In this document: positions 39,335-46,465 of the stretch, in pieces | Layout: every line of letters begins with the position of its first letter | Position numbering within the stretch: the first letter of the stretch is position 1 | NCBI GenBank assembly: GCA_018673925.1 | Contig: JABHBL010000096.1 | Span: forward strand, 1 to 64,000 | Length of the DNA: 64,000 bases | Direction: 5' to 3' | DNA from: Fidelibacterota bacterium | Lineage (GTDB): Bacteria > Fidelibacterota > UBA8477 > JABMPR01 | Translations under genes and position numbers: made by a program | Notes under the pieces: generated by a model | What the model was told of the DNA's origin: nothing | Databases searched by the model: none | What the model saw: the letters and a program-made list of their open reading frames with translations, nothing else

Positions 39335-39685
39335 ATGAATGAAGTAAAGCATATATCATTTTTCGAAGTTGCCTCCAAAGTTCTCAAAGCTTTGGGACAT
39401 CCTGAGCGTCTTCGAATCGTTGAATACCTACAGGCTGGAGAACGAAATGTTGGAGATATCCAACGTGAAATTGGTTTATCACAACCAATCACCTCTCAAC
39501 ATCTGCGATATATGCAACGCCATAACATCCTGACCTCACGTCGGGAGGGCACGCGTCTTTACTACTTTCTGGCCAGTGATCTTATCCGCAAACTTCTGGA
39601 TTGCATGCATTCATGCAAAGTGAGCCTGGATTCCGGCGATATGCAAGTCGGGGACATCTTTCCAGAGATAAAAAGGAGTATTTAG
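39335..39685 (+). CDS. ArsR-family repressor, probable persulfide/thiol sensor
   Basis: I start at the ATG at 39335; a TTG at 39308 would only add an unlikely tail (116 residues from the ATG). The winged helix is clear: VLKALGHPERLRIVEYLQAGERNVGDIQREIGLSQPITSQHLRYMQ (overlapping segments) and the wing LTSRREGTRLYYF. The only cysteines are in the C-terminal helix, DCMHSC (Cys-x3-Cys). Persulfide-sensing ArsR proteins (SqrR, BigR) use two cysteines, one of them in this helix. Here both would be on the same helix, so the chemistry may differ. It heads the sulfur-transfer gene run and has a palindrome in its promoter. Confidence 0.82.
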   Translation: MNEVKHISFFEVASKVLKALGHPERLRIVEYLQAGERNVGDIQREIGLSQPITSQHLRYMQRHNILTSRREGTRLYYFLASDLIRKLLDCMHSCKVSLDSGDMQVGDIFPEIKRSI

Positions 39686-39687
39686 AA

Positions 39688-39924
39688 ATGAGTGAAATGA
39701 ATTTTGATCAGGTATTGGATTGTAAGGGCATGAATTGCCCTCTGCCAGTAATCAAAACAAAAAAAGCTATTGATGCTATGGACAGTGGACAGGTTTTAAA
39801 AATGGTTGCCACGGATCCAGGATCAAAAAATGATATTTCAGCCTGGGCATCTCGCACGGGCAACGAACTTCTGAATAGCGAGCAGACGGATGAAGGATAC
39901 GTATTCTTCATTCAGAAGAAATAG
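39688..39924 (+). CDS. tusA: TusA-family sulfur carrier
   Basis: This 78-residue protein starts at the ATG at 39688, nine bases after AAAAGGAG and two bases after the ArsR stop codon. The active-site motif is DCKGMNCPLPVIKTKKAI (Cys-Pro-x-Pro), followed by the conserved MVATDPGSKNDISAWASRTG and FFIQKK. TusA carries persulfide on the CPxP cysteine and passes it to partners such as DsrE or to oxidation and tRNA-thiolation pathways. The DsrE-like gene next door suggests the oxidation/trafficking role. Confidence 0.95.
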   Translation: MSEMNFDQVLDCKGMNCPLPVIKTKKAIDAMDSGQVLKMVATDPGSKNDISAWASRTGNELLNSEQTDEGYVFFIQKK

Positions 39925-39941
39925 GCTGGAGGCATACACTT

Positions 39942-40457
39942 ATGAGTGAATCAAAACCAAAACGTCTGGCAATAATCGCCTCCCAGGGTACGCTGGATTG
40001 GGCATACCCGCCATTTATTCTGGCCTCTACGGCAGCTGCAATGGATATGGAAGTAGGAGTATTTTTTACCTTCTACGGTTTGACCCTTTTAAATAAGAAA
40101 ATTGAAGCAAATGTAGCACCTCAGACCAATCCGGCCATGCCCATGAAAATGCCCTTTGGTCCAGAGGGTTTTCAGAGTATCCAATGGCCTATCCCAAATA
40201 TTCTGGCAAACAATATTCCAGGATATGAAAGCATGGCGACTTCATTCATGAAGAAAACCTTTGCCAATAAAGGTGTAGCCAGTATTGAAGAATTACGAGA
40301 AATGTGTGTTGATATGGGTGTCCGAATGATTGGATGCCAGATGACTATGGATGTTTTTGGATTCGAAGCCGATGACTTTATTGATGGTGTTGAACTTGGT
40401 GGTGCAGCGAGCTTTCTTGAGTTTGCAGCGGATTCAGATATATCGTTGTTTGTCTAA
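39942..40457 (+). CDS. DsrE2-like sulfurtransferase
   Basis: This 171-residue protein of the DsrE/DsrF/DrsH superfamily has RLAIIASQGTLDWAYPPFILA at the N-terminus, GVFFTFYGLTLL, and the conserved cysteine in GVRMIGCQMTMDVFGF, the pattern of the DsrE2 group found with TusA and persulfide enzymes. DsrE2 proteins exchange sulfane sulfur with TusA. Central DsrE2 proteins of some organisms have membrane segments; none is obvious here beyond a weak hydrophobic stretch. The stop codon directly abuts the next start (TAAATG). Confidence 0.88.
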   Translation: MSESKPKRLAIIASQGTLDWAYPPFILASTAAAMDMEVGVFFTFYGLTLLNKKIEANVAPQTNPAMPMKMPFGPEGFQSIQWPIPNILANNIPGYESMATSFMKKTFANKGVASIEELREMCVDMGVRMIGCQMTMDVFGFEADDFIDGVELGGAASFLEFAADSDISLFV

Positions 40458-40709
40458 ATGAGTTTAAACGGAGCAGATTATAGCGCTGATGCCCACATTG
40501 AGCTGGGTACCTGTGGCATGGGAATGCCAGTTATTCGCTCTCATCAGAAGATCAAAAGCATGGGTATGGGCGAGGTTCTTGAAGTTTCAAGCGCTCATCC
40601 CTGAAGCGAGCCAGATCTCAAGGCCTGGTGCAGAGCCTCCGGACAAAAACTCCTGGATATAAAGCAGGTTGGACAGAGTAAACACTTCTTTATCCAACGG
40701 ATGAAATGA
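40458..40709 (+). pseudogene. Second TusA-like gene interrupted by an in-frame TGA
   Basis: From the ATG at 40458 the frame encodes 48 residues (ELGTCGMGMPVIRSHQKIKS ... VLEVSSAHP). A TGA follows at 40602-40604, and the same frame then continues for 34 residues (SEPDLKAWCRASGQKLLDIK, ending FFIQRMK) to a second TGA at 40707. Both halves align with TusA; the TGA replaces the glycine of the usual DPGS. No frameshift occurs and the end is placed for the next ribosome site. The CPxP cysteine also appears lost, since GMNCPLPV corresponds to GMGMPV. It is either a nonsense-mutated copy or, less likely, a recoded selenoprotein. A 7-bp hairpin with a GTG loop (40621-40638) lies at a distance compatible with a bacterial SECIS. 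Confidence 0.8.
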
Positions 40710-40725
40710 TAAACGAGGAGAGATT

Positions 40726-41883
40726 ATGTTAACCCCTTACTCAGCTAATGAACTTTTTAACTGGCTCAGACAGAAGGATGATTTTCTGCTGTTAGATGTG
40801 AGGAACGAAGAAGACTTTGGTCGCTTTCAAGTAGAAAGCCCACATAAAGTCGATATGTTGAATGTTCCTTACTTCGACTTTATGGAAGAAGAAGAGACCT
40901 CGGTAGCCAAGGTTCCTCGGAATAAAAAGATCAAGGTGGTTTGTGCTAAAGAAGGTTCAGCCCAATATGTTGGTGAAATCCTGGAAAGTCATGGCTTTGA
41001 GGATGTTGGATATCTCAAGGAAGGCATTGTCTCCTGGGGTAATATGCTGGCACCGGTCAGAGTCAATGAGGAAGGTGAAGCCTTTGAGGTGTGGCAGTTT
41101 ATTCGGCCCGGGAAGGCTTCATTAAGCTGGGGAGTCATCTCCGAAGGTGAACTGAGCATTTTTGATCCCTCACGAAACCTTGAATTCTATACCGAATTTG
41201 CCGCCGAACATGGTTGTAAAATCACACAAACTTTTGAAACACATCTTCAAGCTGATTATATCAGCGGCAGTCGTTTTATTTCAAAAGCAGTGGGTTCAAA
41301 AGTCTATGGACACTCCGGTGACTTTATGGGTGCCAGCTTTGATTATACTGCCGTCCAGAATGGGGATATTTTCAAAGCTTCTCCAAACGGACCAGACATC
41401 GAAGTCGTGCATTCCCCCGGTCATACTCCAGGAAGTACCTGCTACAAAATTGATGATACCTTTGTGGTATCTGGTGACACCATTTTCCTCGTATCATTAG
41501 GTCGTCCTGATCTGGGCGGGAAGGCAGTGGAATGGGCTGGCATGCTCTATGAGACCATGACCCAAAAGATAAAGACCATGGATCCTACACTCCAGATATT
41601 ACCCGGTCACTATATTGAGTGGGCTGAAGCCGATGAGGATCTGGTATTCATGGACACACTCCAGAATATCCTGGATAGCAATGCCGCTATTTATGGCATC
41701 TCAACTGAAGCCGATTTTGTGGAATTCATAAAACAAAACATTCGTAAACAACCTGATGTATATGCTGAAATTCGCAAAGTAAATGCTGGTTGGCTTGATC
41801 CAGAGGATGATGAACAGTCCTCAATGGATCTTGGTAAAAATGAATGTGCAGCCTCAGCATACGCTGCTCAACAGTCAGCCTGA
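40726..41883 (+). CDS. Rhodanese/metallo-beta-lactamase fusion, persulfide dioxygenase-like
   Basis: This 385-residue protein has an N-terminal rhodanese domain (residues 1-115: LLLDVRNEEDFGRFQ, catalytic Cys73 in KVVCAKEGSAQYV, and GYLKEGIVSWG). A metallo-beta-lactamase domain follows, with FETHLQADYISGS, VHSPGHTPGSTCY, VVSGDTIFLVSLGRPDLGG and ILPGHY. The combination resembles CstB-type persulfide dioxygenases, which oxidise persulfides to sulfite or thiosulfate. The first metal motif reads H-x-Q-x-D-Y instead of H-x-H-x-D-H, a variant I know from related rhodanese fusions but of uncertain activity. A GAGGAG site precedes the ATG. It fits between sulfur carriers and the oxidoreductase. Confidence 0.82.
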   Translation: MLTPYSANELFNWLRQKDDFLLLDVRNEEDFGRFQVESPHKVDMLNVPYFDFMEEEETSVAKVPRNKKIKVVCAKEGSAQYVGEILESHGFEDVGYLKEGIVSWGNMLAPVRVNEEGEAFEVWQFIRPGKASLSWGVISEGELSIFDPSRNLEFYTEFAAEHGCKITQTFETHLQADYISGSRFISKAVGSKVYGHSGDFMGASFDYTAVQNGDIFKASPNGPDIEVVHSPGHTPGSTCYKIDDTFVVSGDTIFLVSLGRPDLGGKAVEWAGMLYETMTQKIKTMDPTLQILPGHYIEWAEADEDLVFMDTLQNILDSNAAIYGISTEADFVEFIKQNIRKQPDVYAEIRKVNAGWLDPEDDEQSSMDLGKNECAASAYAAQQSA

Positions 41884-41938: not shown

Positions 41939-43549
41939 ATGAATTATGGCTTTGTAATAGACAATCGCAAATGTATCGGCTGTCATGCCTGTACGGTTGC
42001 GTGTAAGTCTGAACATGATGTGGCCATCGGTGTCAATCGCACCCATGTGAAGTACATTGAAAAGGGTGTCTTTCCAGATGCGAGTCGCTCCTTTTCCGTA
42101 CATCGCTGCAACCACTGTGAAGATGCACCCTGTACCACAATCTGTCCCACGTCAGCACTCCATACCCGCATGGATGGTATTGTCGATTTTGACAATGATC
42201 GTTGTATTGGTTGTAAATCCTGCATGCAGGCTTGTCCCTATGACGCCCTGTATATCGATCCAGATACCAATACGGCAGCCAAGTGTAATTACTGTGCTCA
42301 CCGGGTTGATACTGGATACGAACCTGCCTGCGTGGTGATTTGTCCAACGGAGGCTATCATTTCAGGTGATCTGGATGATGCCCATTCAAAAATTGCTTCC
42401 TTTGTAGCAATGGAGCATGTGGTGACACGGAAACCCGAAAAAGGCACTACACCGAATCTTTACTATATCGAGGGTGACTCAGATATGCTCACACCCAGCA
42501 ATGCTGAACGTCGAGATAATTATATCTGGAGCGAACAAGCCTCAGGAGTGGGTCATCACGCCCCGGCTGCCGCAACAACTGAGCGCACAGAGAGTCAAGC
42601 TGATCTCCTTGTTCAAATGGCCATTGAATCCCATGCCAAGAATGGAACGCAACCTGATCAGCGGGCCATTGATAAAGTTCTGGAAGAAATCAAGGCCGAG
42701 GAGCAAAGTGCAACCCGTCGTGTATACGATTCACCTGCCAAAGGTGTACTCTGGGGCTGGGAAGTTCCTGCCTACATCTGGACAAAATCGGTGGCCACTG
42801 GTTTGCTCCTGGTATTGGCACTGACCTCCTGGTTTGGAGCAGCAGCAGACTCAACTCTTGAGTTTAACGGCTATATGGCAGCCATTGTTTTTATGATGTT
42901 AACGGGAGGTTTGCTGGTCAAGGATCTTGATAGACCAGATCGCTTCCTCTATGTCTTGCTGAGACCCAACTGGTCCTCATGGCTGGTGCGGGGTGGCTAT
43001 TTGATTACTGTCTTTGGAGCTATTATCACTGCTTTGATGGCAGATAATTTCTTTGATCTCGGTTTCCGAACCCTGCTCATCAATCTGACGGCTCCTGTCG
43101 CTCTTTTAACAGCTATTTATACGGCCTTTCTATTGGCACAGGCCAAAGGCCGTGATCTCTGGGGAAGTCATCTGGCTCCGGTACATATGTTGATTCATGC
43201 TTTGATAGCAGGGTCGGCAGGCTGGTTATTTCTTGGCGGTGTAGATTCTATTTTGACCTTGCTCATCCTGAAATTGGCCGTATTGGTAAACTTGGCTCTT
43301 ATCGGACTTGAGTTCATCACACCTCACGCGACTTCAGATACAAAAAGAGCCCATCATCTCATGATTTCAGGTTTTTATTCCAGGCATTTCATGCTGGGTA
43401 TCATTATGGGAAATCTGGTTCCATTGATCATGCTCTTTACGCTTGACACAGAATTGATGTTACTCATTGCCGCTGGACTCTCAGCAGCTGGTATTTTTAT
43501 CACCGAATTTGTGCGTGTGAGAGTACCTCAATTAATCCCCTTGAGTTAA
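41939..43549 (+). CDS. Fused iron-sulfur (PsrB-like) and NrfD/PsrC membrane subunit
   Basis: This 536-residue protein combines two usual subunits. Residues 1-165 hold four [4Fe-4S] sites: CIGCHACTVAC, CNHCEDAPCTTIC, CIGCKSCMQAC and CNYCAHRVDTGYEPACVVIC. A linker of about 100 residues follows. From residue 270 come eight membrane helices of the NrfD/PsrC type, with the signature DLDRPDRFLYVLLRPNWSSW and the SRHFMLGIIMGN helix near the end. It would pass electrons between the quinone pool and the molybdoenzyme encoded next. Neither protein has a Tat signal, so the catalytic side faces the cytoplasm, as in Soe-type sulfite dehydrogenases. A GGGGGAG site precedes the ATG. Confidence 0.9.
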   Translation: MNYGFVIDNRKCIGCHACTVACKSEHDVAIGVNRTHVKYIEKGVFPDASRSFSVHRCNHCEDAPCTTICPTSALHTRMDGIVDFDNDRCIGCKSCMQACPYDALYIDPDTNTAAKCNYCAHRVDTGYEPACVVICPTEAIISGDLDDAHSKIASFVAMEHVVTRKPEKGTTPNLYYIEGDSDMLTPSNAERRDNYIWSEQASGVGHHAPAAATTERTESQADLLVQMAIESHAKNGTQPDQRAIDKVLEEIKAEEQSATRRVYDSPAKGVLWGWEVPAYIWTKSVATGLLLVLALTSWFGAAADSTLEFNGYMAAIVFMMLTGGLLVKDLDRPDRFLYVLLRPNWSSWLVRGGYLITVFGAIITALMADNFFDLGFRTLLINLTAPVALLTAIYTAFLLAQAKGRDLWGSHLAPVHMLIHALIAGSAGWLFLGGVDSILTLLILKLAVLVNLALIGLEFITPHATSDTKRAHHLMISGFYSRHFMLGIIMGNLVPLIMLFTLDTELMLLIAAGLSAAGIFITEFVRVRVPQLIPLS

Positions 43550-43606: not shown

Positions 43607-46465
43607 ATGAAAAGATCGTGGATAGAAAAATTTGCCGAGGGTATCCGACTCATTCCGAGGATTTCTCAGCACGAAGATGCCTCTGAAGCATATGCTCTGG
43701 AGGGACCGCGTCCCCTCTACAAATATCCTAAACCAGAAGAATGGGATAATTTTGTAGAGCTGGATCCTCAAGCCTGGCCAGTGAAAAAGGAACGTCGATA
43801 TAGCATCGTTCCCACGACCTGCTTTAACTGTGAATCTGCCTGTGGCTTGCTAGCCTATATTGATAAAGGTGATGATAAAATCCGCAAATTCGAGGGAAAC
43901 CCTCATCATCCAGGCTCGCGTGGAAGAAATTGCGCCAAAGGTCCAGCCACCATCAATCAGGTCAAGGACACCGAACGCATTCTTTATCCCCTCAAGCGAG
44001 TGGGTGAACGTGGAGCTGGTGACTGGGAACAGATCTCCTGGGATCAGGCTCTTGATGAAATCGGTGCCAAAATCCAAAAATCTTTAAAGGCAGAACGACG
44101 AGATAAAGTGGTTTACCATGTGGGTCGACCTGGTCATGAAGGTTACATGGAACGTGTTCTAAAGGCCTGGGGTGTGGATGGTCACAACTCCCATACCAAT
44201 ATTTGTTCAGCAGGAGCTAGAGCAGGATATGCCATGTGGCATAAATATGATCGACCTTCACCAGATCATACCAATGCCAAGGTGATTCTCCTGGCCAGCT
44301 CTCACCTGGAAACCGGTCATTATTTTAATCCACATGCTCAACGCATCATGGAAGGCAAGATGAAGGGTGCCAAGCTTATTGTCATGGATCCCCGTCTCTC
44401 AAATACAGCCTCCCACGCTGATTATTGGATGCCAACCTATCCAGGGTCTGAAGCCGCTGTTTTTCTGGCAATGGCCAAGATCATCCTGGAAGAGGGTCTC
44501 TATGATAGAGAATACATTGAAACCTGGGTAAATTGGGATGAGTATCTGAAAGCAGTTCACCCCGATGCACCGCACACTTTTGAAACCTTTATTGAAAAAA
44601 CCATTGAAGCTTATGCTGAATTCACACCAGAATATGCAGCAAAGGAAGCAGGGATTGAAGCTTCACAGATTGTAGAAGTTGCCCATGTTGTGGCCTCAGC
44701 AGGATCACAGCTTTCCACCCATGTCTGGCGTGGTGCTTCCATTGGTAATCTTGGTGGCTGGCAAGTCTCACGGACGCTGCATTTTCTGAATGTTCTGACA
44801 GGCTCAGTGGGAACCCCTGGTGGAACCTCGCCCAGTGCCTGGAATAAATTTCACCCTGAATTCTTTGATGTGCCCCCAGGTCCTCCGGTCTGGAACGAGC
44901 TACATTTTCCCAAGGAATACACCCTGAATCATTTTGAAATGAGTCAGATTCTACCTCACCTCATCAAAGATGGTCGAGGTTCAATGGATGTGTATTTCAC
45001 AAGAGTATTTAATCCTGTCTGGACCTATCCAGATGGTTTTTCATGGATTGAAATGCTTTCTAACCATGAATCCGTTGGTTGTCATATTGCTCTCACTCCT
45101 ACCTGGAATGAAACGGCCTTTTTTGCCGATTATGTCTTACCCATGGGTCATGGACCTGAGCGTCATGATATCAATTCATATGAAACCCATTCCGGGATGT
45201 GGATCGCCTTCCGTCAACCCGTATTGCGGGAAAAGGCGCGACGTGATGGTAAAGAAGTCAAATTCACCTATGAAGTGAATCCTGGTGAAGTTTGGGAAGA
45301 GGATGAATTCTGGATTGAATTATCCTGGCGGATCGATAAGGATGATGATCTGGGGATCCGCAAACACTTCATGAGTCCCTACCGTGACGGTGAAAAAATA
45401 ACCATTGATGAGTATTACCAGTACATTTTTGAACACACTGAAGGTCTCAAAGAAACTGCCGCAGAAGAAGGTCTCACAGCGCTCGATTATATGCGCAAGT
45501 ATGGTGCCTTTAATGTGGTTCCAAGTCTGTACTCAAAGAACAAGACTGAAATGTCAACCGAAGCTCAGTCAGGAACCACTGTTAATGAAAATGGCAGTGT
45601 GTATAAAGATGGTGAGATTGTAGGTGTTGAAGACAAGGGCGTCAAATACAGCGGCTTCCCCACACCTTCAAAGAAGCAGGAATTCTATTCTCAGACCACA
45701 GCTGATTTTGGTTATCCTGATCAAGCTATTCCTGGTTATATCAAATCCCATGTCCACCGCGATCATATGGATGAAAGCCGTCATGAATGTGTACTTCTGC
45801 CCAACTTCAGATTACCAACCCATATCCATTCTCGTTCTGCTAATGCCAAATGGTTGACAGAAATCGCCCATAGGAATCCTATCTGGATCAACACGCTGGA
45901 TGCTGATAAGCTTGGCGTGAAAACTGGGGAGCTCTTAAAAATCGAGACAGAGATTGGCTGGTTTGTAGACAAGGTCTGGGTCACTGAGGCCATCAAGCCC
46001 AGTGTTGTGGCTTGTTCACACCACATTGGACGCTGGCGTCGTAAACAGGATCAGGGCAATAAGTTCATGACCAATACGGTGAACATCAGCAACGAGGGTC
46101 AAGGCAAGTGGCGCATGGAAACCACTAGAGGTGTTGAACCCTGGAAAACCAGCGATCCTGATACTCAGAGGGTTTGGTGGCGTGATGGAGGTGTTCATCA
46201 GAATATCACCCATGCTGTGCAACCTGATCCAGTATCCGGTGCCCATTGTTGGCTCCAGAAAGTGGCTATTTCCAAACCAAAAGATGGTGAAAAGTACGGT
46301 GATGTCTTTGTAGATACTGAGAAATCATTTGCTCACTTCAAAAAATGGAATGGATGGGCGAAAGAACGTGAAACGCATCCTGATGGTTTGAGAAGACCAC
46401 TATGGATGGGTCGACCACTGGCACCAAGCAAGGAACTCTTTTATCTGAAAAAGGAAGAGAGTTGA
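43607..46465 (+). CDS. Molybdopterin oxidoreductase, Soe/Psr/Phs-like catalytic subunit
   Basis: This 952-residue protein of the DMSO-reductase superfamily binds one [4Fe-4S] cluster (CFNCESACGLLAY ... GRNCAKGPATI) and bis-MGD. The probable Mo-ligand cysteine is in HTNICSAGARAGYAMW. Other landmarks are ASSHLETGHYFNPHAQRI, VMDPRLSNTASHADYWMP and the C-terminal dinucleotide-binding barrel (LPNFRLPTHIHSRSANAKWL). No Tat signal is present (MKRSWIEKFAEGIRL), which favours a cytoplasmic sulfite- or sulfane-oxidising role over a periplasmic polysulfide reductase. The substrate cannot be fixed from sequence alone. The upstream persulfide genes make sulfite oxidation to sulfate at the quinone pool my preferred reading. 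Confidence 0.88.
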   Translation: MKRSWIEKFAEGIRLIPRISQHEDASEAYALEGPRPLYKYPKPEEWDNFVELDPQAWPVKKERRYSIVPTTCFNCESACGLLAYIDKGDDKIRKFEGNPHHPGSRGRNCAKGPATINQVKDTERILYPLKRVGERGAGDWEQISWDQALDEIGAKIQKSLKAERRDKVVYHVGRPGHEGYMERVLKAWGVDGHNSHTNICSAGARAGYAMWHKYDRPSPDHTNAKVILLASSHLETGHYFNPHAQRIMEGKMKGAKLIVMDPRLSNTASHADYWMPTYPGSEAAVFLAMAKIILEEGLYDREYIETWVNWDEYLKAVHPDAPHTFETFIEKTIEAYAEFTPEYAAKEAGIEASQIVEVAHVVASAGSQLSTHVWRGASIGNLGGWQVSRTLHFLNVLTGSVGTPGGTSPSAWNKFHPEFFDVPPGPPVWNELHFPKEYTLNHFEMSQILPHLIKDGRGSMDVYFTRVFNPVWTYPDGFSWIEMLSNHESVGCHIALTPTWNETAFFADYVLPMGHGPERHDINSYETHSGMWIAFRQPVLREKARRDGKEVKFTYEVNPGEVWEEDEFWIELSWRIDKDDDLGIRKHFMSPYRDGEKITIDEYYQYIFEHTEGLKETAAEEGLTALDYMRKYGAFNVVPSLYSKNKTEMSTEAQSGTTVNENGSVYKDGEIVGVEDKGVKYSGFPTPSKKQEFYSQTTADFGYPDQAIPGYIKSHVHRDHMDESRHECVLLPNFRLPTHIHSRSANAKWLTEIAHRNPIWINTLDADKLGVKTGELLKIETEIGWFVDKVWVTEAIKPSVVACSHHIGRWRRKQDQGNKFMTNTVNISNEGQGKWRMETTRGVEPWKTSDPDTQRVWWRDGGVHQNITHAVQPDPVSGAHCWLQKVAISKPKDGEKYGDVFVDTEKSFAHFKKWNGWAKERETHPDGLRRPLWMGRPLAPSKELFYLKKEES

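Follow-up and report, generated by a model that had tools for sequence, protein, structure and literature searches.

The question raised by this locus is whether a TGA codon inside a TusA-like reading frame is a lesion or a sense codon. Within the window (the whole stretch of 64,000 nucleotides that was analysed) the frame at 40458-40709 reads MSLNGADYSADAHIELGTCGMGMPVIRSHQKIKSMGMGEVLEVSSAHP*SEPDLKAWCRASGQKLLDIKQVGQSKHFFIQRMK*, with a single interior TGA at 40602-40604 and TusA-like sequence on both sides of it in one frame, just as the initial annotation had described. That annotation considered a recent nonsense mutation or a sequencing error the simpler reading, while allowing for recoding as selenocysteine (Sec). 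Against recoding it held that TGA is a normal stop elsewhere, that relatives have the Gly of a DPGS motif at this codon, that the CPxP cysteine is missing and that no sel genes are seen here; it proposed an alignment of orthologues, in which relatives with a Gly codon and an intact CPxP motif would speak for a mutation, and a search of the genome for selA, selB, selC and selD.

The gene, termed Sec-TusA below, opens as had been proposed at the junction with the DsrE2 stop, its ATG directly following the TAA at 40455-40457, and when read through it scores 41-44 bits against the Pfam TusA family PF01206, over the cut-off of 28.6. No ATG, GTG or TTG lies in frame near the start of the second half, 3' of the TGA; because this half lacks a start codon two separate half proteins are unlikely, and re-initiation was rejected. 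That UGA encodes another amino acid through a general code change or a suppressor tRNA is barely conceivable: canonical TusA has Gly at the position and TGA is read as Gly in some candidate phyla, but TGA is the terminator, in this very operon, of Sec-TusA itself and of the neighbours ending at 41883, 46465 and 47961, so that a general change was rejected, and both Sec machinery and a candidate insertion element are present. The observation that TGA serves as a normal stop is thus true of the window but no obstacle, being what Sec insertion leads one to expect.

Table 1. Features of the Sec-TusA locus and the evidence for each
Feature	Position	Strand	Evidence
ArsR-type regulator, heads operon	39335..39685	+	PF01022 42 bits
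Canonical TusA paralogue (CPLPV, DPGS), two genes upstream of Sec-TusA	39688..39924	+	PF01206 91 bits
DsrE2 sulfur carrier, adjacent upstream	39942..40457	+	NF047629 215.6 bits, cut-off 210
Sec-TusA gene (putative TusA-fold selenoprotein, 83 aa, Sec at residue 49)	40458..40709	+	Read-through frame, PF01206
Cys19 codon (invariant residue of TCGMGMPV; candidate partner for Sec49)	40512..40514	+	Alignment
TGA codon, proposed to be read as selenocysteine (Sec49)	40602..40604	+	TGA in 23/23 non-redundant rows, 25 intact genomes
SECIS-like hairpin AGGCCUG-GUG-CAG(A)GCCU	40621..40638	+	Synonymous freezing, lower-stem covariation, foldings
Rhodanese/metallo-beta-lactamase fusion (persulfide dioxygenase-like)	40726..41883	+	PF00581, PF00753
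4Fe-4S/NrfD fusion subunit	41939..43549	+	PF13247, PF03916
Molybdopterin oxidoreductase (Soe/Psr/Phs-like catalytic subunit)	43607..46465	+	PF00384, PF01568, PF04879

When 60 related genomes were searched with read-through of the stop, the gene was recovered in eight more, at 54-98% identity and each time with a single TGA in the matching codon. The resulting nine sequences make up a profile (A1) in which the TGA column was entered as Cys, and orthologues with Cys would therefore have scored better. The profile was run against 390 genomes (245 of the phylum and 145 relatives of a Pseudomonadota carrier), and a GTDB-wide contig collection of 84,980 genomes was scanned with degenerate motif patterns. 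Intact Sec-TusA occurs in 25 genomes from several families of Neomarinimicrobiota, from Pseudomonadota/'Delta' MAGs and from Nitrospinota. The orthologue alignment has TGA at the same codon in all 25, with no TGT or TGC form, and in all 23 non-redundant rows of the codon table; judged from the alignment, this is far more than chance would leave among 23 distinct proteins whose identity falls to 35%. Neither the motif scan of the 84,980 genomes nor the profile search of the 390 yielded an intact Gly, Cys or other form of the clade, and the viral contigs searched held no relatives of Sec-TusA. The 23 TGA proteins group as a single clade in a maximum-likelihood tree, with support of 100/99, against 53 canonical TusA. 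The clade is marked by the motifs CG[MI]GMPV, with an invariant Cys19, and H[PT]U[SA], the latter also given as HPU[SA]xxD for the second loop. The Gly of DPGS that had been ascribed to relatives is hence a property of the canonical TusA paralogues and not of the true orthologues. The CPxP cysteine is indeed missing, its position being occupied by Met in all members, but since the whole clade shares this loss it does not argue against recoding. Homologues with Cys at the Sec position, the usual hallmark of a selenoprotein, were not found for Sec-TusA in either search; they are not obligatory, the precedent being glycine reductase selenoprotein A (PMC12013277).

Purifying selection extends across the codon. 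Pairwise pN/pS ranges from 0.03 to 0.44 upstream of the TGA and from 0.08 to 0.67 downstream, remaining below one on both sides and also when the hairpin codons are left out; the downstream values therefore indicate that translation passes the TGA. Genuinely decaying copies have another appearance: the one in G186 (L087) has Ser at the Sec site and a TAA and has lost motifs, and those in G251 (L106) and G254 (L115) have lost the CGMGMP motif. In a further damaged copy, that of G226 (L088), the second half is intact and the first half unreadable owing to a frameshift or an assembly fault.

The hairpin at 40621-40638 is present as initially described. It lies just downstream of the TGA, its apical loop contains a G and begins 23 nt after the codon, and the spacing is typical of SECIS elements. 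The codons +7 to +10 after the TGA (Ala-Trp-Cys-Arg) are synonymously frozen, with GCC in 20/20, TGC in 19/19 and AGA or AGG in 20/20 sequences; elsewhere in Sec-TusA the codons used for Ala, Cys and Arg are variable, and a conserved Arg, at codon -22, is encoded by CGN in 20/20, versus AGR in the hairpin. Pair 3-18 of the lower stem joins two third-codon positions and is found as GC, CG, UA, AU and GU. The covariation score was matched by 7 of 500 shuffles, and 87% of cells are paired, compared with 26-43% in slid controls. Where the Cys codon has become Val (TGG GTC AGG in G029), the stem is kept as CCUG-GGU-CAGG. The Nitrospinota have a hairpin of other sequence in the same place, CAC(U)CGUG-GGUCU-CACGGUG, with the bulged U and GGUCU loop that SelB recognises in E. 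coli and Moorella. In the G146/G136 subgroup the two outermost pairs are not formed. The single-sequence folding energy is no better than that of shuffles (z about -2 to +0.6) and an Rfam search of the hairpin region gave no match, blanks that may be expected because the element is so short; we consider the evolutionary evidence for the hairpin the stronger.

These observations bear directly on the preference for an ordinary TusA gene hit by a recent nonsense mutation or misread in sequencing, which would leave a truncated, non-functional protein. A single GGA to TGA change would suffice for it, and the Gly of canonical TusA and the lost CPxP cysteine fit it, but the same TGA recurs in independent assemblies of 25 intact genomes from three phyla, selection continues beyond it, the hairpin is conserved and real decay looks different. 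We regard this explanation as very improbable; the conservation of TGA, flanking protein and hairpin in three phyla refutes what had seemed the simpler reading.

Sel genes are, as had been objected, absent from the window, but the search of the same genome (3.41 Mb in 113 contigs) found all four on other contigs: tRNA-Sec (selC) at C102:6039-6129 (72 bits, gathering threshold 47), full-length SelB at C10:80602-82428 (348 bits, cut-off 242), SelA at C10:84001-85326 (524 bits) and SelD at C26:43075-43998, the last with an in-frame TGA at its own catalytic site. The complete selA, selB, selC and selD set that a bacterial selenoprotein requires is thus present in the genome. SelA is found in 24 of the 25 carrier genomes searched, two of which hold damaged Sec-TusA copies. 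The exception, G013 from the same genus, has an intact Sec-TusA, yet selA, full-length selB and selD are missing from its 86% complete draft, in which tRNA-Sec is present; the absence is probably due to incomplete assembly and possibly to loss of the trait. The tRNA-Sec scored below threshold in 6 of 23 carriers, which are draft genomes. As 177 of the 245 genomes of the phylum have selA, its co-occurrence alone is weak evidence.

That UGA 40602-40604 encodes Sec, and that the gene is a selenoprotein, is well supported by this comparative evidence; the recoding that the initial annotation had entertained gains its support from the conservation of the TGA across three phyla together with the full Sec machinery. 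SelB and tRNA-Sec, guided by the hairpin, would insert selenocysteine at the UGA to give an 83-residue protein with a TusA fold. We consider it highly probable that Sec insertion is combined here with a duplicated TusA of shifted reactive residue, which would most likely take part in a cytoplasmic sulfur relay.

The gene keeps characteristic company, lying within modules for dissimilatory sulfur oxidation or sharing a genome with them. In the genus of the window the order is mostly ArsR, TusA, DsrE2, Sec-TusA, rhodanese/MBL, 4Fe-4S/NrfD, molybdoenzyme and DASS transporter. The 952-aa molybdoenzyme (43607-46465), which has the FeS/NrfD partner, falls far short of the cut-off of every NCBIfam equivalog; the best is the thiosulfate reductase PhsA, at 197 of 694 bits. 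G009, which belongs to the same genus, and other Neomarinimicrobiota have Sec-TusA behind the final Hdr-like subunit in an operon of the sHdr type. The genes after it encode EtfB, EtfA, a protein resembling HdrD, a GcvH-like protein that binds lipoate and a lipoate ligase; TusA and DsrE2 lie at a distance of 6-8 kb where contigs are long enough. Inside these operons (L058:926-12018 of G009; L061, L065, L045) EtfB/EtfA and the HdrD-like FeS protein are flanked by the Hdr-like genes on one side and by the lipoate-binding protein and lipoate ligase on the other, and an ETF within an sHdr cluster may point to flavin-based electron transfer. An obligatory partnership with sHdr was rejected because the window's own genome lacks a close sHdr B2, its best HdrB-like match reaching only 33%. 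In Pseudomonadota the order is dsrMKJOP, DsrE2, Sec-TusA and a YeeE/YedE-like transporter, with DsrM, K, J, O, P and DsrE2 over their NCBIfam cut-offs. The transporter directly 3' of the gene (L068:6301-7491) scores 122 bits as YedE/FdhT and 119 as TsuA, both below cut-off; it is possible that the two form a TsuA-TsuB-like pair with a Sec protein. The Nitrospinota genes lie on short contigs with no adjacent sulfur genes, and each of these genomes encodes elsewhere a DsrE2-like protein that scores 177-178 bits and so misses the cut-off of 210. Of the 25 genomes with intact Sec-TusA, 24 have DsrE2, whereas G251 and G254, both with decaying copies, lack it; DsrE2 is thus the constant companion of Sec-TusA, and the two appear to have been lost jointly in G251 and G254.

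AlphaFold2 run on alignment A1 gave a TusA-like model (pLDDT 81) consisting of strand 12-17, helix 23-33, strand 40-45 and helix 50-61. Its best PDB match is E. coli TusA (3lvj, 1dcj; TM 0.82-0.88), followed by the TusA-like part of the YeeE-YeeD complex (8j4c, 8k1r; TM 0.86). The profile match, at 43.7 bits, and the fold alike thus place the protein in the TusA/SirA superfamily (PF01206), and it lacks the catalytic CPxP cysteine of a functional TusA. Cys19 falls within the loop that joins the first strand to its helix, the site of CPxP in canonical TusA, and Sec49 just before the second helix, in place of the Gly of DPGS. In the TusA fold the first and second loops lie on the same side of the sheet, and a selenenylsulfide between Cys19 and Sec49 as a candidate pair is for this reason plausible on the model. 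Cys58 (of AWC) was rejected as redox partner: it is Val in G029 and in Nitrospinota, and a residue that is not invariant is an unlikely partner of Sec49.

The protein would have arisen from a duplicated TusA that lost the CPxP cysteine and gained a selenol in the adjacent loop, where the second helix begins. Sec49 would be the reactive group and Cys19 its resolving partner, with the Sec49-Cys19 selenenylsulfide as a resting or resolving state. Sec49 may take sulfane sulfur or thiosulfonate from DsrE2 or another carrier, or reduce it there, and such groups may be exchanged with DsrE2 or the neighbouring canonical TusA; DsrE and TusA homologues exchange thiosulfonate in Metallosphaera (PMC4175335). 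Since the gene is encoded with DsrE2 and sulfur-oxidising complexes, a cytoplasmic relay role is the most likely one, and gene context makes a sulfur or redox relay with DsrE2 the likely function. A bolder version, in which sulfane sulfur would ride on Sec49 itself (Se-S) during the DsrE2 relay, an essential use of selenium in place of sulfur for which cysteine does not substitute, rendering lithotrophic sulfur oxidation selenium-dependent, is tentative and we lean slightly against it. If it were true, SAR406/Neomarinimicrobiota and some marine Pseudomonadota and Nitrospinota would need selenium for sulfur oxidation.

Two other functions would fit a selenoprotein. A YedF-like trafficking protein delivering selenium instead of sulfur would be in keeping with YedF being a TusA/SirA-like protein linked to SelD (PMC2432076) and the best, if weak, NCBIfam match of Sec-TusA, and with the YedE/TsuA-like transporter 3' of the gene in Pseudomonadota. 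We think this improbable, as Sec-TusA was not seen adjoining sel genes, the match to YedF is well short of its cut-off, a C-terminal DsrE-like domain is lacking and most selA-positive genomes of the phylum are without the gene. The main rival is a selenol oxidoreductase that carries no sulfur and would serve to resolve persulfides or mixed disulfides, or to shield the sulfur-oxidising complexes from damage. A redox function is assumed for the majority of bacterial selenoproteins (PMC13188914), and the sulfur-carrying CPxP cysteine has given way to an invariant Cys in the first loop; the gene nevertheless associates with sulfur-carrier genes and not with general redox systems, which leaves this reading unlikely but a serious competitor. 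A pure redox role of this kind, reducing persulfidated carriers, would compete with the proposed relay function and leave the Sec assignment untouched.

The 119 families and subfamilies of prokaryotic selenoproteins inventoried in 2026 include DsrE-like, rhodanese-like and YeeE/YedE members and no TusA/SirA (PF01206) (PMC13188914); NCBIfam 20.0 has no matching selenoprotein model. We found no Sec-TusA in the open-access literature, where an earlier listing is possible, for instance in the groundwater MAG survey that is reference 66 in PMC13188914. Within the scope of these sources Sec-TusA may be a previously unlisted selenoprotein. It may have been overlooked because deep-Sep retains a candidate only where a Sec or Cys homologue is already known; as its authors point out, the method may pass over families that lack Cys homologues (PMC12013277). 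The prokaryotic selenoproteome would thereby gain a family that methods based on Cys homology would overlook, no Cys form having been found. On the TusA fold the reactive residue appears to have shifted by one loop and to have exchanged sulfur for selenium, and in uncultured marine bacteria selenium would be tied to dissimilatory sulfur oxidation. Annotation pipelines would shorten this conserved member of sHdr/DsrE2/Dsr operons or flag it as broken.

Among known systems, TsuB (YeeD), the partner of the thiosulfate importer TsuA, has a TusA-like fold but is a Cys protein, and the YeeE/YedE-like transporter that follows Pseudomonadota Sec-TusA is not adjacent to the gene in the window. YedF (NF008242) shares a TusA-like domain linked to selenium, and in the E. 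coli protein the second loop likewise holds a reactive-type residue, Cys (DCPQS in 1je3); YedF keeps CPxP. Enterococcus-type YedF differs by its C-terminal DsrE-like domain and its position beside selD, Sec-TusA having only 83 aa, 24.9 of the required 79 bits and an operon without sel genes; YedF and other SirA-like proteins are tied to selenium metabolism and not described as containing Sec (PMC2432076). The DsrE-like (PF02635, UxxC) and rhodanese-like selenoproteins are Sec members of other sulfur-transfer families, with folds unrelated to Sec-TusA (PMC13188914 Table 1). Closest is the TusA/SirA-like sulfurtransferase (PF01206; E. coli TusA), of the same fold and length, whose Pfam cut-off Sec-TusA exceeds and whose known dsrE-tusA clusters are echoed by the adjoining DsrE2 (PMC4175335). 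From this relative Sec-TusA is set apart by Met in place of the CPxP cysteine, the proposed Sec in place of the DPGS glycine, and the invariant CGMGMPV.
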